Source: Mesoaciditoga sp. (lineage in GTDB: Bacteria > Thermotogota > Thermotogae > Mesoaciditogales > Mesoaciditogaceae). From it: DNA of 47,641 bases. Positions 28,074 to 47,641 of this stretch are shown piece by piece; the first letter of the stretch is position 1, and each line of letters opens with the position of its first letter. The stretch lies in assembly GCA_002878315.1 (NCBI GenBank), contig PNIW01000050.1:1-47641 (forward strand), in the 5' to 3' direction. The notes below the pieces were generated by a model that had not been told where the DNA came from, searched no databases, and was given only the letters and a program-made list of their open reading frames with translations. The position numbers were made by a program, and so were the translations under genes.

Positions 28074-28077
28074 TCTG

Positions 28078-28150
28078 TGGAGCCGATGGGATTTGAACCC
28101 ACGACCTCTTGCATGCCATGCAAGCGCGCTCCCAACTGCGCCACGACCCC
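28078..28150 (-). tRNA. tRNA-Ala (anticodon GGC)
   Basis: This is a complete 73-nt cloverleaf on the minus strand. The acceptor pairs GGGGTCG with CGGCTCC and includes the G3:U70 wobble that is the alanine identity element, with discriminator A73. The anticodon stem CTTGC/GCAAG encloses ATGGCAT with anticodon GGC, and the T-arm contains GGTTCAAATCC. The 3' CCA is not encoded. Confidence 0.97.
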
Positions 28151-42190: not shown

Positions 42191-42217
42191 AAAGGGCCCC
42201 ATAAAGGGCCCTTTCTA
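42191..42217 (-). terminator. Rho-independent terminator of the ptb-to-AOR operon
   Basis: The perfect arms AAAGGGCCC (42191-42199) and GGGCCCTTT (42206-42214) enclose the loop CATAAA. On the minus strand the stem is followed by a T-rich ATTTTATGAT tract. It lies about 78 nt after the last gene of the operon. Confidence 0.85.
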
Positions 42218-42294: not shown

Positions 42295-43242
42295 TTAAAT
42301 TCTAAAGTCAAAACCTGATTTACGTATAATTGTGAGGTAATCCTCAACTTTGAAAGTTCCATAAGAAAAGGCACAAAATCCGAAGGTATCCATCATGTCT
42401 TTGACCGGATCTTCATGTACGTGAGATGGCCGGGCTTGAACGTGCTTTAAAAGGTCTAAAAGTTCTTTTGTGTCTTTGGGAAGATGTTCTATTATTTCTC
42501 CCGCACGCAAAGAATCAACGCCAAGGTCGTTACATAGGTTAACAAATTTTCTGACCGTTTCTTTGTCCCCGATATGCTTCATAAATGTGATGCCAGCCTT
42601 TTCCCAGTGATCATTCAAACGTTTTTCGCATTTAACAGGACATTCCAGACATGGATCATTTACCACTTCATTGGTGGACAACTTTATCGCCTTCAAATTT
42701 TTACTTCCCATTACGGCTCCGAAACCGTTCCGTCCGGCAGGAGAGTCATCAAAAAGTATAACGGATAATGGCGAGAGCATCTCTCCTGTTGGCCCTATAC
42801 ATGCGATAATTGATCTTCCATCTGAAAGAGATTTTTTGCATTCCGACACATTTGTCCCTTTTAGGTACGGCGCATCGAGTATTTCGACTTTCGAACCATC
42901 TATAGAAATGTATGAAAGATCCTTTGCCTTTCCTTCAATTAAAAGGCCATCGTATCCGATCAATTTGAGAGCAATGCCAAACCTTCCACCTGTCGAACTG
43001 ACGCTTCTTGTACCATCAATTCCATATGTTGCCACAGCAAATCTTCCGCCGTGAGGTATGCCTTTCTTTCCGGTGAATGGTCCCGTCGCGATGGCGAGCA
43101 TATTTGACTCCGACAAAGGATCGGAAGGACAGATCAATTCAAGGGCAAGTTTTTTCCCGCCTATTAAATCCGGATTAATTTCAAGTGTTGATATTTCTCC
43201 AACGGACAAATTTATCTTTAAAAATCTTATCTCCTTCATCAT
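42295..43242 (-). CDS. Half-length aldehyde ferredoxin oxidoreductase homologue
   Basis: This 315-residue protein is homologous to tungsten-pterin aldehyde ferredoxin oxidoreductases, which are about 600 residues. The N-terminal domain is well kept (STGGRFGIALKLIGYDGLLIEGKA, GRNGFGAVMGSKNLKAIK). The Fe4S4 cysteine triad is C198-x2-C201-x3-C205, and domain 2 begins normally (CNDLGVDSLRAGE, 237-249). After that, about 200 residues expected in the family are missing. The text resumes with DTFGFC (285-290), resembling the DxxGxC motif that supplies the fourth cluster cysteine and a pterin contact. A short C-terminal end follows. The frame is clean, so it looks like a real compact protein rather than a fresh frameshift. 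Overlaps the TPR stop by 4 nt. Confidence 0.82.
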   Translation of the reverse strand: MMKEIRFLKINLSVGEISTLEINPDLIGGKKLALELICPSDPLSESNMLAIATGPFTGKKGIPHGGRFAVATYGIDGTRSVSSTGGRFGIALKLIGYDGLLIEGKAKDLSYISIDGSKVEILDAPYLKGTNVSECKKSLSDGRSIIACIGPTGEMLSPLSVILFDDSPAGRNGFGAVMGSKNLKAIKLSTNEVVNDPCLECPVKCEKRLNDHWEKAGITFMKHIGDKETVRKFVNLCNDLGVDSLRAGEIIEHLPKDTKELLDLLKHVQARPSHVHEDPVKDMMDTFGFCAFSYGTFKVEDYLTIIRKSGFDFRI

Positions 43243-44771
43243 CTTACAACCATCTCGATAAGGTTCGCAAGATCAGGATCAATTTCTCCAGAGAACATAA
43301 GATACGTTATGTAACCGGCCATTCCCCTTGGATTATCTTTGTTTGCCGTAGCAAACTTTTCATCCATAACCTTTGCAATGACACCTCCGATCTTCCACGA
43401 TATATCGCTTATCTGCGGTATGACCTCATCTATTGATTCATCAACATTGTATCCGAGTGCGTGAATGTAAAAGTAAACCCTGTAAAGGAAAATAAGCAGC
43501 GCTGTGACATCGAAAGATCCCGAAAATGCAAGAGAGGCGCGAGTTATGAATGATTCGGCCGAATAAAAATGAAGGCCGTGTTCTCTGATCGCGATCTCGG
43601 CGATCTTGATCATCGAAGGATCGAAGATCATCTCTTTACCCATATAACCTTCTTTTATCTCTTCAATTCTTTTTTTGATACGTGGATCTTCTGTATTCAT
43701 GTATTTCGCGACTTCTAAAAGATCGATTTTAAGGTTCCATTCATCCTGAAACTCTATGAGTGTTTTTCTCGATAAAGAAAGTTCTCCTGGAAGTTCCCCA
43801 CACAACTTGAGAGCTTCTTCTGTCATCCCGTTTAACGCATAAAGATCGATAGCGGCAATTAAAAATCCTTCTTCATCGATACCAAGACTGAGGCCTTCCT
43901 CAACATATGCGAGAGATTCTTCGTAAAGGCCGGCTATTTTTTCAAGAATCACAAGTTCGGTGAAAAATTCTGGCAATTTGTTCTCTTTAACGAGAGATTT
44001 CAATATTTCAATAGCCTCGAAGATCTTTCCTTGCCGGTAAAGGGCATATGAAAGATTGTACCTCGAGTGAAGATCTCCTTCCTTGTTTTCGATCGAGGAT
44101 CTGAATTCTCTTTCGGCAAGAGAGAATTTCTGGAGAGCATTTGCAGCAACGCCTATTCTCCAATGCACAGGCAATGTCTTTTCAATAGAAAGAGATTGAC
44201 GGTACAGCGCTATGGCCGAATTGTAATCTCCGATCGCAAGATACGCATCACCCATTAAAACGTAAAAAAGGGCAAAAGACGGATCTATCTCGAGGGCCTT
44301 CTTACACACATCTATTGCTTCTTCGTATTCGCGCTCTTCCATAAGAGTCCTTGCAAGTTCCAATCTTATCGGCAAATACTCTGAATTCATTGCGAGCGCC
44401 TCTTTAAGGAGGATTTCCGATCTCTCGAGATTACCCTCGATTCTTTCTATTATTCCGAGATGAAGCGGATACCGGTAATCCTTTTTGTAATCAGATGCTT
44501 CCTCGACGTATTTTCTTGCCGCATTTATATTCCCATTATTTATGAAAAACCTTGCCCTGTCATAAAGCAAATAAACTAAATATGGAAGGTAATAATCTAC
44601 CTTTTTCCCCGTTTCTATTTGGGCCTTTAATCCTCTCAAGATCATCTCTGGATCCAGTTTGTTGTTTTTGATGGCCTCTTCGAAATCATCACCAAGCAAA
44701 GGAAGAGAAAGAGGAAGGTTTTCTTCCTTGGCCTTTTGCGGCTCCAAAGAAAGATAAAATATGACCTTCAT
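43239..44771 (-). CDS. TPR-repeat protein
   Basis: This 510-residue cytoplasmic protein has no signal or membrane segment. About six or more tetratricopeptide repeats span about residues 75-330 (AARKYVEEASDY, YEEAIDVCKKALEIDPSFA, YNSAIALYRQSLSIEKTLP, FEAIEILKSLVKEN). The 180-residue C-terminal region is alpha-helical and unfamiliar. It is a probable scaffold for protein interactions. It overlaps the degenerate activator upstream and the AOR homologue downstream by 4 nt each, implying coordinated expression. Confidence 0.82.
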   Translation of the reverse strand: MKVIFYLSLEPQKAKEENLPLSLPLLGDDFEEAIKNNKLDPEMILRGLKAQIETGKKVDYYLPYLVYLLYDRARFFINNGNINAARKYVEEASDYKKDYRYPLHLGIIERIEGNLERSEILLKEALAMNSEYLPIRLELARTLMEEREYEEAIDVCKKALEIDPSFALFYVLMGDAYLAIGDYNSAIALYRQSLSIEKTLPVHWRIGVAANALQKFSLAEREFRSSIENKEGDLHSRYNLSYALYRQGKIFEAIEILKSLVKENKLPEFFTELVILEKIAGLYEESLAYVEEGLSLGIDEEGFLIAAIDLYALNGMTEEALKLCGELPGELSLSRKTLIEFQDEWNLKIDLLEVAKYMNTEDPRIKKRIEEIKEGYMGKEMIFDPSMIKIAEIAIREHGLHFYSAESFITRASLAFSGSFDVTALLIFLYRVYFYIHALGYNVDESIDEVIPQISDISWKIGGVIAKVMDEKFATANKDNPRGMAGYITYLMFSGEIDPDLANLIEMVVR

Positions 44772-45898
44772 TTCAAATTGTAAATTTTGATCTTTTTGTT
44801 TAAGGTCTTTACGTTTATTCCGAGTACTTCGGAGATCTTTTTCTTGTCTTTTTTATAGATTTCCATTGCCCTCTTTATTATTGCCATTTCGCCTTCTCTT
44901 ATAATTCCTTCCATATAATCTTTCATCTTGGGAATTTCTGAAAGTTCTTTTATATCTTTTCTAAATGTAATCTCACCACCTATGAATGCCTTGCAAAACC
45001 TAAAGAAACTTCTCCAGTTTTCCGGCCACTTTTCTTTTTTCAAAGTTTCATTTATGTTTTCTGAAAAGTTCAAAAGGGAGTTCTTCGTGTTTTGAGCCAT
45101 CATGGAAATCACGTACCTGAAAATTATCGGAATATCTTCAGATATTTCTTCAAGAGACGGGATTTCGACGGTGCTAAGTCCCGCTATTTGAATTATTGGT
45201 TTGGGTATATTTTGGGGTTCAACAAAGTGAAATAAAATTCTCGCATTGCATCTTTGATCTCTATCCGTTCCGTAAGACGAAAAACGGCCGGTTGAAACTG
45301 CCATTGCTATTCTAAAAAGCAGTGAAGAAGGGATCTTATCACAATTTGTAAGAACCACAAGGGTATTTTTTAAAAGTTTGGGAAGATGATTTGCCGTACC
45401 AAAAAGGTTTAACATAACCTCTTCTTCCTGAATAGATTTAAAATCAAATGTATCGTGATCTCCGACAATCTTTGAAAGTATCCACTCTTCGAGCAATCCG
45501 TCCTTTGCGATTGCTATCGACACTCTTGATCTCGTTATTTTGGAAAGTTTATCGTATGCGGCAGACATTTTTGAACTGAGATTTATAGGCTCAAAAAGCA
45601 AATCCTGATTTTTCTTGAGTATCTCTATCTCATTTTCTCGTTGATCCATCTTCACGAAGATCTCTACAAAAAGCCCGACATCCGCTTTAGAAACTTTAAT
45701 TGCGCCTTCTATGGAATCTTCACCGGTATAAAGTATTCTATCTTTGCCAACGAATTTTGAGGCGATTTCGAAATCGCCTTTATTCTCAACAACAATAAGA
45801 TCCCAAAATTGAGAGTAGATTTCATCTTCTATTTTGGCGTAAGTTTTATGTTCGGAGTTCACCTGTTTGTCAAGTTCCAATGGAACGAGTATATTCAC
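44768..45898 (-). CDS. NtrC-like regulator with degenerate AAA+ domain and Fis-type HTH
   Basis: This is a 376-residue protein with the layout of a sigma54 enhancer-binding protein. Its N-terminal 1-80 may be a receiver-like fold. The AAA+-like middle reads RVSIAIAKDGLLEEW where Walker A GESGTGKE is expected, lacks GAFTGA after LFG, and has TLVVLTNCDKI where TLFLDE is expected. A Fis-type helix-turn-helix closes it (AIIKRAMEIYKKDKKKISEVLGINVKTLNKKIK). It therefore probably cannot hydrolyse ATP or open sigma54 promoters, and may act as a DNA-binding repressor or adaptor. The start is GTG 45898 with GGAGG 4 nt upstream; an ATG at 45925 lies before that SD, inside arcC. Family call by pattern only. 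Confidence 0.65.
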   Translation of the reverse strand: MNILVPLELDKQVNSEHKTYAKIEDEIYSQFWDLIVVENKGDFEIASKFVGKDRILYTGEDSIEGAIKVSKADVGLFVEIFVKMDQRENEIEILKKNQDLLFEPINLSSKMSAAYDKLSKITRSRVSIAIAKDGLLEEWILSKIVGDHDTFDFKSIQEEEVMLNLFGTANHLPKLLKNTLVVLTNCDKIPSSLLFRIAMAVSTGRFSSYGTDRDQRCNARILFHFVEPQNIPKPIIQIAGLSTVEIPSLEEISEDIPIIFRYVISMMAQNTKNSLLNFSENINETLKKEKWPENWRSFFRFCKAFIGGEITFRKDIKELSEIPKMKDYMEGIIREGEMAIIKRAMEIYKKDKKKISEVLGINVKTLNKKIKIYNLK

Positions 45899-45908
45899 AT
45901 TTCCTCCA

Positions 45909-46850
45909 TTAGTCGGGAATGACAAAGGTTCCAGCTGTCCCCTTCATCGCTTCGGAAGACTTCTCAAGAGACGTTATGATACACTGACGGCCTGTTGCCT
46001 CAACGAAAGAGATGGCCGCTTCTATCTTTGGTCCCATAGAGCCTGAAGGGAACTGATTCTGCGCAAGATACTTTTTCGCATCGGATACTTTTAATTCTTT
46101 AAGAATCTTCTGATCTGGCTTACCGTAATTCAAGTAAACCTCATCAACGCCGGTTAAAATCATAAAGATATCGACATTGAGTATCCTTGCAAGCAACGAA
46201 GATGCCCTGTCTTTATCTATAACAGCCTCAACGCCATGGAGTGAGCCGTCCTTTTCTCTTAAGACAGGCACCCCTCCGCCTCCAACGGCAACCGTTAAAA
46301 CACCTTTTTCCATCAAATCTTTTATAAGATCCTTTTCTATTATATCAAGCGGTTCTGGCGAAGGAACAACTCGCCTGTAACCCCTTCCCGCATCCTCTTT
46401 CATCTTCCATCCTTTTTCTCTCGCGAGTCTCTCTGCTTCCTTCACATCGTAAAAAGGACCAACTGGTTTGGTTGGATTTTGAAATGCCTTATCCTCCGGA
46501 TCAACTACAACCTGCGTGACTATCGCCGCGCATTGTCTGTGTTTTTTGTGAACAAGCAATTGATTTTCCATAGACTCGACTATAAGATAACCAAGCATTC
46601 CCTGAGTGTACGCGTCGTTAAGATCTAAAGGAAGCGGCGGAATAAGTTCCTTTGCCCTGTCCTGCTGGACCATCAGATTTCCAACCTGAGGCCCATTTCC
46701 ATGAGTTATCACGATATTGAGATCGTCTAACATATCTACAAGGTATTTGGCCGTAACATTGAGGTTCTTCCTCATAACTTCGGCCGTTGGTGGTTCCTTC
46801 GGACCCTGAATTGCGTTCCCGCCTACCGCTATAACGGCACTTTTTTTCAT
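45909..46850 (-). CDS. arcC: Carbamate kinase
   Basis: This amino-acid-kinase-fold enzyme transfers phosphate between carbamoyl phosphate and ADP, making ATP. It has 313 residues. AVGGNAIQG at the N-terminus, the family signature THGNGPQVGN, ILTGVDEVYLNYG and GSMGPKIEAA are intact. The start is ATG 46850 with AGGAGG 7 nt upstream; the longer frame to 46925 lies inside ptb. No arginine deiminase or ornithine transcarbamylase is adjacent, so its partner pathway (ureidoglycine, agmatine or other) is not shown. It sits 10 nt after ptb. Confidence 0.95.
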   Translation of the reverse strand: MKKSAVIAVGGNAIQGPKEPPTAEVMRKNLNVTAKYLVDMLDDLNIVITHGNGPQVGNLMVQQDRAKELIPPLPLDLNDAYTQGMLGYLIVESMENQLLVHKKHRQCAAIVTQVVVDPEDKAFQNPTKPVGPFYDVKEAERLAREKGWKMKEDAGRGYRRVVPSPEPLDIIEKDLIKDLMEKGVLTVAVGGGGVPVLREKDGSLHGVEAVIDKDRASSLLARILNVDIFMILTGVDEVYLNYGKPDQKILKELKVSDAKKYLAQNQFPSGSMGPKIEAAISFVEATGRQCIITSLEKSSEAMKGTAGTFVIPD

Positions 46851-46860
46851 ACTTATCCTC

Positions 46861-47641
46861 CTATTCGAGTGCTCCCAGAGATATAGATGCAAGTTTAGCC
46901 TTTGCCTCATCGGCTCTTGATACAACGATTATCGGAACTTTTGCACCAAGAATTATACCACCTATCGTGTAATGTGCGCAGTAATCCATACTTTTTCCAA
47001 TGAAATTGCCTGAATTTATTTCTGGAACGATCAATATATCTGCGTGGCCAGCAACATCGCCGCCTACTCCCTTTACCTTTGCGGCCCTTTCGTCTATAGC
47101 GTTGTCAAAGCCAAGAGGCCCATCTATTATGCATCCTTCTATCTGTTTTCTCTTTCCCATCGCCGCAAGTTCGGCTGCCTCGACTGTTTCAGGTATTTCT
47201 GGATTCACAACTTCAACTGCCGCTATGCATGCAACCTTTGGAAGCGACACTCCGAGTCTTTTGAAAAATGAGACTGCGTTCTTTATAATTTGAACCTTTT
47301 GATCCAGCGTGGGTTTTATTATCATTCCTCCGTCCGTTATTCCTATGAATCTTCCGTAATCCTTTGCTTCAACGACCGTAAGATGGCTCAAAAGGGATCC
47401 GGTTCTCAAACCCCATTCAGGATTTAGAACGGCCTTCAGAAGATCGCTCGTCTTAACAAGACCCTTCATGAGTATATCGCCTTTTCCGGAAGAAACGATT
47501 TTGACTCCCACCTCACAGGATTTGTGAGGATCTGAATCGATTATTTCGAATTTATCCTTTATTCCAAGAGATTCGAGATTTTCTTTTGTAACTTTTCCAT
47601 CCCCAACAAGAATCCCATCGACAAAGCCTCGATCTACCGCC
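46861..47641 (-). CDS. ptb: Phosphate butyryltransferase (5' end beyond window)
   Basis: It interconverts butyryl-CoA (or branched acyl-CoA) and acyl phosphate in fermentation. Conserved pieces are VGDGKV, KGDILMKGLVKTSDLL, WGLRTGSLLSHLTVVE, ITDGGMIIKP, KVACIAAVEVVNPEIPETVEAAEL, IDGPLGFDNAI, VAGHADILIVPEINSGN and VSRADEAKAKL. The frame is open through the window edge: codons before the GTG at 47511 continue with family-like sequence (AVDRGFVDGILVGDGKV). About 260 of some 300 residues are therefore visible, and the gene is partial, not short. Butyrate kinase is not next to it; arcC is. Confidence 0.92.
   Translation of the reverse strand, partial: AVDRGFVDGILVGDGKVTKENLESLGIKDKFEIIDSDPHKSCEVGVKIVSSGKGDILMKGLVKTSDLLKAVLNPEWGLRTGSLLSHLTVVEAKDYGRFIGITDGGMIIKPTLDQKVQIIKNAVSFFKRLGVSLPKVACIAAVEVVNPEIPETVEAAELAAMGKRKQIEGCIIDGPLGFDNAIDERAAKVKGVGGDVAGHADILIVPEINSGNFIGKSMDYCAHYTIGGIILGAKVPIIVVSRADEAKAKLASISLGALE

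Follow-up and report, generated by a model that had tools for sequence, protein, structure and literature searches.

The contig PNIW01000050.1 of the heat-loving bacterium Mesoaciditoga sp. (assembly GCA_002878315.1), analyzed here as one window of 47,641 nucleotides, closes with a tightly packed run of five minus-strand open reading frames. They encode a phosphotransacylase of the Ptb family, carbamate kinase (ArcC), an NtrC-like regulator, a tetratricopeptide-repeat (TPR) protein and a compact homologue of aldehyde oxidoreductase (AOR), and they lie where an earlier note on this DNA had placed them (Table 1). Along the unit, in that order, the first two gaps measure 10 nt each and the last two junctions are 4-nt overlaps. 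A strong intrinsic terminator follows the last gene; the operon-like packing claimed in that note is thus real. The window comes from an Athalassotoga relative. The nearest genome, that of Athalassotoga saccharophila NAS-01 (genome paper PMC7163026), has a terminator-like stem at the equivalent site past its AOR gene (L071:6914-6896), and its operon extends upstream into lonB, ham1-like and lysA-like decarboxylase genes. Because the A. saccharophila unit runs further, the count of five genes is a limit imposed by the end of our contig. The five most likely constitute one layered transcription unit, with a single predicted transcript.

We moderately favor the following account of this unit. An old core, consisting of the phosphotransacylase and the carbamate kinase beside a DNA-binding protein derived from a bacterial enhancer-binding protein, would have been joined in the window's family by a TPR gene that is present throughout the phylum. 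The compact AOR, probably an iron-sulphur redox protein, would then have been added at the operon's end in part of Athalassotoga.

Table 1. Features of the five-gene unit and its terminator, with positions in the window
Feature	Position	Strand	Evidence or remark
Ptb-family phosphotransacylase	46861..47640	-	259 codons visible; 5' end outside contig; PTA_PTB 1.5e-39
arcC, carbamate kinase	45909..46850	-	TIGR00746, 396.6 bits vs cut-off 358.25
Degenerate NtrC-type regulator	44768..45898	-	GTG start; 23-ortholog alignment, AlphaFold2, Foldseek
HTH_8 (Fis-type) DNA-binding segment of NtrC-like protein	44786..44899	-	weak Pfam match, 0.0058
TPR protein, 510 aa	43239..44771	-	TPR_19 2.2e-19
Compact AOR homologue, 315 aa	42295..43242	-	AFOR_N 7.4e-45
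C198-x2-C201-x3-C205, putative [4Fe-4S] ligands 1-3 of compact AOR	42628..42651	-	aligned to P. furiosus AOR C288/C291/C295
NDLGVD, first DxxGL(D/C)-type motif of compact AOR	42514..42531	-	aligned to AOR 338-343
DTFGFC, second DxxGL(D/C)-type motif; C290 = putative fourth [4Fe-4S] ligand	42373..42390	-	aligned to AOR 489-494, C494
Intrinsic terminator 3' of AOR gene	42191..42214	-	10-pair stem, 6 G-C, T-rich tail

Gene order was mapped around orthologs of the NtrC-like gene, picked by sequence and not by position, in a search of 41 Thermotogota genomes. At 22 of 23 loci, belonging to several families, this gene adjoins arcC or a gene of the ptb family. The single exception (L092) lies on a short contig, and its neighbor there is the gene that sits between ptb and arcC in another genome (G012). 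The tie between the regulator and the Ptb/ArcC genes therefore extends across the phylum, which supports this part of the operon described in the earlier note. ArcC is encoded in 40 of the 41 relatives, and dppA precedes ptb in two families. The genes further upstream vary: lonB, ham1 and lysA in Athalassotoga, genes of the methylmalonyl-CoA epimerase, carboxyltransferase and biotin-carrier types in the sister genera of the window's family, and dppA with ispD outside that family. A protein of about 380 residues is encoded beside the ptb, arcC and NtrC-like genes in two families (L091:9846-10973 and L092:2746-3909); an NCBIfam scan of the L091 copy alone gave no match.

The ArcC of the window scores above the cut-off of the curated carbamate kinase equivalog, and the Ptb is less easily named. 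Its full-length ortholog in A. saccharophila misses the phosphate butyryltransferase model TIGR02706 (313.9 vs 410.5 bits), whereas a second A. saccharophila Ptb, whose gene lies between two butyrate kinase genes with genes of the 2-oxoacid oxidoreductase type alongside, passes it. The unit resembles a Ptb-Buk operon in that a Ptb-family gene stands beside the gene of a phosphokinase acting on an acyl-type phosphate; it differs in that the kinase is ArcC and not Buk, that the Ptb paralog falls below the curated cut-off, and that the canonical buk-ptb-buk cluster lies elsewhere in A. saccharophila. We considered whether ArcC might substitute for butyrate kinase and judged the idea weak, given that A. 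saccharophila owns two buk genes with a ptb of their own. That separate cluster (butyrate kinase, Ptb, butyrate kinase, a small open reading frame and 2-oxoacid:ferredoxin oxidoreductase-type genes) occupies L135:81-6396 in A. saccharophila, and a cluster of the same type is found in the window's genome on contig C24 (L136:11848-17998). The buk-ptb-buk cluster is located near moeA and a mogA-like gene, and it likely represents a branched-chain acyl-phosphate route to ATP.

The third gene product had been likened to a disabled sigma54 activator, and this description is borne out. Neither Walker A nor GAFTGA was found in any of the 23 aligned orthologs, and the AlphaFold2 model of the window's protein (mean pLDDT 85, pTM 0.58) retrieved NtrX (5m7p, 1.2e-16) and NtrC1 (1ny5, 3.8e-14) in Foldseek, with matches spanning the receiver, AAA+ and helix-turn-helix (HTH) domains. 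The orthologs thus share with the NtrC/NtrX sigma54 enhancer-binding proteins a receiver-like, an AAA+ and a Fis-HTH domain in the same order. They differ in their missing motifs, in their lengths of about 285-425 residues and in their occurrence also where sigma54 is undetected: RpoN is present in window-type genomes, but was not detected in some of the genomes that bear an ortholog (e.g. G026, G028, G032, G040, G011, G017 and G023). What has been kept is the start of the lid (IPPLRxRxEDIP in most orthologs), a W-G/E-N segment and the Fis-type HTH, which is among the best-conserved stretches of the alignment; in the window's protein, Pfam matched AAA_lid_14 and HTH_8 weakly. Between the window and A. 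saccharophila, the ratio of nonsynonymous to synonymous substitution rates (dN/dS, NG86) is about 0.07 for this gene and about 0.03 for arcC.

These features suggest a stable DNA-binding regulator that would make no use of ATP or sigma54. Because the ATPase and sigma54-contact motifs are lost while the receiver, AAA+ and Fis-HTH folds are kept, the protein is most likely an ordinary repressor or activator, and its most likely target is its own operon. Its receiver or its dead nucleotide pocket may also serve to sense a metabolite, for example acyl- or carbamoyl-phosphate. In family f2 (L094, L104 and L105), a gene for a GGDEF diguanylate cyclase heads the unit of NtrC-like, ptb and dppA genes; its position there hints that cyclic di-GMP could act on the regulator in that family.

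The TPR gene has a different history. Homologs of its product occur in all 41 genomes searched, and in every one of the ten genomes of the window's family the gene lies directly downstream of the NtrC-like gene, mostly with a 4-nt overlap. This adjacency is confined to that family; in the other families examined the TPR gene is located elsewhere, for example beside comEC-type and phosphoglycerate-mutase-type genes. The protein has TPR repeats in common with scaffolds such as MamA and PilW, but it falls far under the curated cut-offs for these and has a conserved C-terminal part. Its gene also shows constraint between the window and A. saccharophila (dN/dS about 0.1, NG86). As an alternative, the regulator could serve only ptb and arcC, with the TPR protein and the compact AOR being passengers that share a transcript and not a function with a housekeeping operon, to which lonB, ham1-like and lysA-like genes also belong in A. 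saccharophila. The differing upstream neighbors between genera, the placement of the TPR gene elsewhere in other families and the lack of a compact AOR at the same locus in two members of the genus (G001 and G002) all fit such an arrangement. The unbroken pairing of the NtrC-like and TPR genes within the family does not, and we consider the passenger explanation possible but rather unlikely.

The compact AOR is much rarer. When 103 Thermotogota genomes were searched with the C-terminal half of the protein, compact AORs appeared in seven: the window's genome (G000), A. saccharophila (G003) and, outside their family, five genomes of f11. Five of these carriers (A. saccharophila and four metagenome-assembled genomes under the label Thermotogaceae) were also retrieved by a pattern scan across 84,980 species genomes, which gave one other match, short and weak. 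The gene stands in this operon in the window's genome and A. saccharophila only, i.e. in two of the four genomes of the genus; in G001 and G002, each 96% complete, a convergent gene follows the TPR gene. Among the f11 compact AORs, two lie next to a gene for glucose-1-phosphate thymidylyltransferase and two next to one for rubrerythrin, and none of the five has an arcC, NtrC-like or TPR gene nearby. At two f11 loci (L119:2541-4027 and L120:8965-10454) there is overlap or direct contact between the frame of the compact AOR and a rubrerythrin gene, an arrangement that fits a redox role. A tree built on 329 columns splits the compact from the full-length proteins with an ultrafast bootstrap (UFBoot) of only 90 and on long branches. 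In a topology test of one versus two origins of the compact forms, the compared trees had equal likelihood.

The earlier note had raised the prospect that the three unusual genes form one conserved system. With all three adjacent in only two genomes, a conserved NtrC-like/TPR/AOR system is rejected; the NtrC-TPR pair is conserved within the family only, and the five other compact AORs lie beside unrelated genes. The note also put forward a regulatory complex linked to redox state or acyl phosphate, which we take to have the TPR protein as the bridge from the compact AOR to the NtrC-like protein. This idea draws on how tightly the three genes are coupled in the window's genome and A. saccharophila, and on the pairing of an AOR protein that has lost its catalytic residues but kept its cluster ligands with a regulator that has lost its ATPase motifs. 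However, most NtrC-TPR pairs have no adjoining compact AOR, and other compact AORs have neither an NtrC-like nor a TPR neighbor. Conservation gives no support to a three-protein complex, and membership of the AOR protein is unsupported outside the genus; we regard the complex as improbable. A bolder version would make the compact AORs a pterin-free, [4Fe-4S]-core branch of the tungsten oxidoreductases that was reused for redox sensors or carriers and that, in Athalassotoga, feeds redox state via a TPR adaptor to a dead NtrC-type regulator of acyl- and carbamoyl-phosphate metabolism. We regard this version, too, as improbable.

In the compact AOR the AFOR_N domain is retained, and about 77 of the 385 positions of AFOR_C are matched, under the cut-off. 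Against the full-length Thermotogota AORs, the alignment shows three absent blocks: one ahead of CxxCxxxC, of about 85 residues in the window's protein and shorter in those of f11; one of about 115 residues from the helical middle, NRGGCH segment included; and one of about 100 residues at the C-terminus. The protein had been called half-length. It is indeed reduced in size (about 315 residues vs about 605), but the term is inexact: there are internal deletions, and the chain still reaches the fourth cluster cysteine, which in the window's copy lies within DTFGFC near the C-terminus. Residue numbers follow a P. furiosus AOR sequence; its length matches 1aor and the checked positions fit. Equivalents of all four [4Fe-4S] cysteines (C288, C291, C295 and C494) are retained in every aligned compact AOR, and in two of them (G090 and G091) these are the sole cysteines in the protein. 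N238, D239, G241, V242 and D243 of the first DxxGL(D/C)-type motif and D285, G288 and C290 of the second are invariant. Thus the compact AORs share with the AOR/WOR family (1aor, 9g7j) the N-terminal domain, R76, CxxCxxxC with its distant fourth cysteine and both motifs. They differ in their size and deletions and in lacking Glu313 and His448, whose equivalents fall in gaps in each of the six compact AORs aligned. The corresponding residues of the C. autoethanogenum enzyme, E312 and H448, are described as perfectly conserved in the family and as participants in the reaction, and have been proposed to be catalytic (PMC12727526).

Because the catalytic glutamate and histidine are missing, the compact AOR is most likely an electron carrier or redox sensor and not an aldehyde oxidoreductase; the preference of the earlier note for a redox protein over an enzyme is favored by this loss. 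On our best reading, the protein folds like the N-terminal domain of AOR, followed by what is left of domains 2 and 3, where four cysteines would meet to hold a [4Fe-4S] cluster. The predicted structure (pTM 0.84) had confident matches in the Protein Data Bank to AOR-family structures only, the N-terminal domain aligning with TM-scores of about 0.56 of query length.

Could the compact AOR still be an enzyme whose old pterin site takes up a scavenged pterin or some different ligand? The retained R76, the two motifs and the N-terminal domain would suit such a role, but the loss of E313 and H448 in all aligned copies and the changes at N93 and R182 in the window's copy do not. The cofactor context is mixed. 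The six compact-AOR genomes that were tested showed no full-length AOR (no AFOR_C match above the cut-off) and no MoaC, a further difference from the AOR/WOR family; since only two lineages are represented, they amount to few independent events. MoaC was not found in any of the four Athalassotoga genomes, one a finished chromosome. Among the 16 relatives whose AOR is full-length, it is present in 12 and was undetected in G007, G011, G019 and G023. Athalassotoga does retain MoeA and a MogA-like gene, and the cofactor pathway there appears, as far as tested, incomplete rather than wholly missing. An argument that these organisms have no pterin whatsoever was set aside, weakened by MoeA and the MogA-like gene and by the genomes that have a full-length AOR and no MoaC. 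In two of the latter, G011 and G023, neither MoaC nor MoeA was detected, which may mean that the genomes are incomplete or that the cofactor is supplied in some unusual way. Taken together, continued enzymatic activity seems to us quite improbable. The large deletions, and the lack of a remaining full-length AOR in the genome, might suggest a full-length AOR that is decaying into a pseudogene (or was cut by an assembly break). This is very improbable, because the frame is also open, between the same ends, in the 79% identical A. saccharophila ortholog, dN/dS is about 0.2, and similarly deleted relatives with all four cysteines occur in another family. More precisely, dN/dS between the window and A. 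saccharophila is 0.17 (NG86) or 0.21 (YN00), with 22% of residues differing; the gene is under purifying selection and is selectively maintained.

Four points weigh against the layered account and the redox role within it. With MoeA, the MogA-like gene and both DxxGL(D/C)-type motifs kept, the protein may still bind pterin. Residues 204-221 of the compact AOR model, right after CxxCxxxC, have a pLDDT below 50, and because this segment is poorly modelled the structure does not establish a formed cluster site. Promoter scans leave room for internal promoters within the unit. Finally, a single lineage ties the compact AOR to this operon.

Tungsten oxidoreductases are usually regarded as a family of large tungsten-pterin enzymes. 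The compact AOR, small, AOR-derived, selectively maintained and keeping its cluster ligands without the catalytic residues, is the standout of this unit. If our reading is correct, the compact branch illustrates how a metalloenzyme can turn into an iron-sulphur redox protein, and it cautions annotators against labelling genes of this type “AOR”. The NtrC-like family would be a second clean case, that of a sigma54 activator turned into a non-ATPase regulator, and it has stayed with one metabolic operon phylum-wide, including in members without detectable sigma54. We found no description of either protein in the open-access papers searched. Elsewhere in the window, the only RNA gene detected is a tRNA-Ala (GGC) at 28077-28150 on the minus strand.

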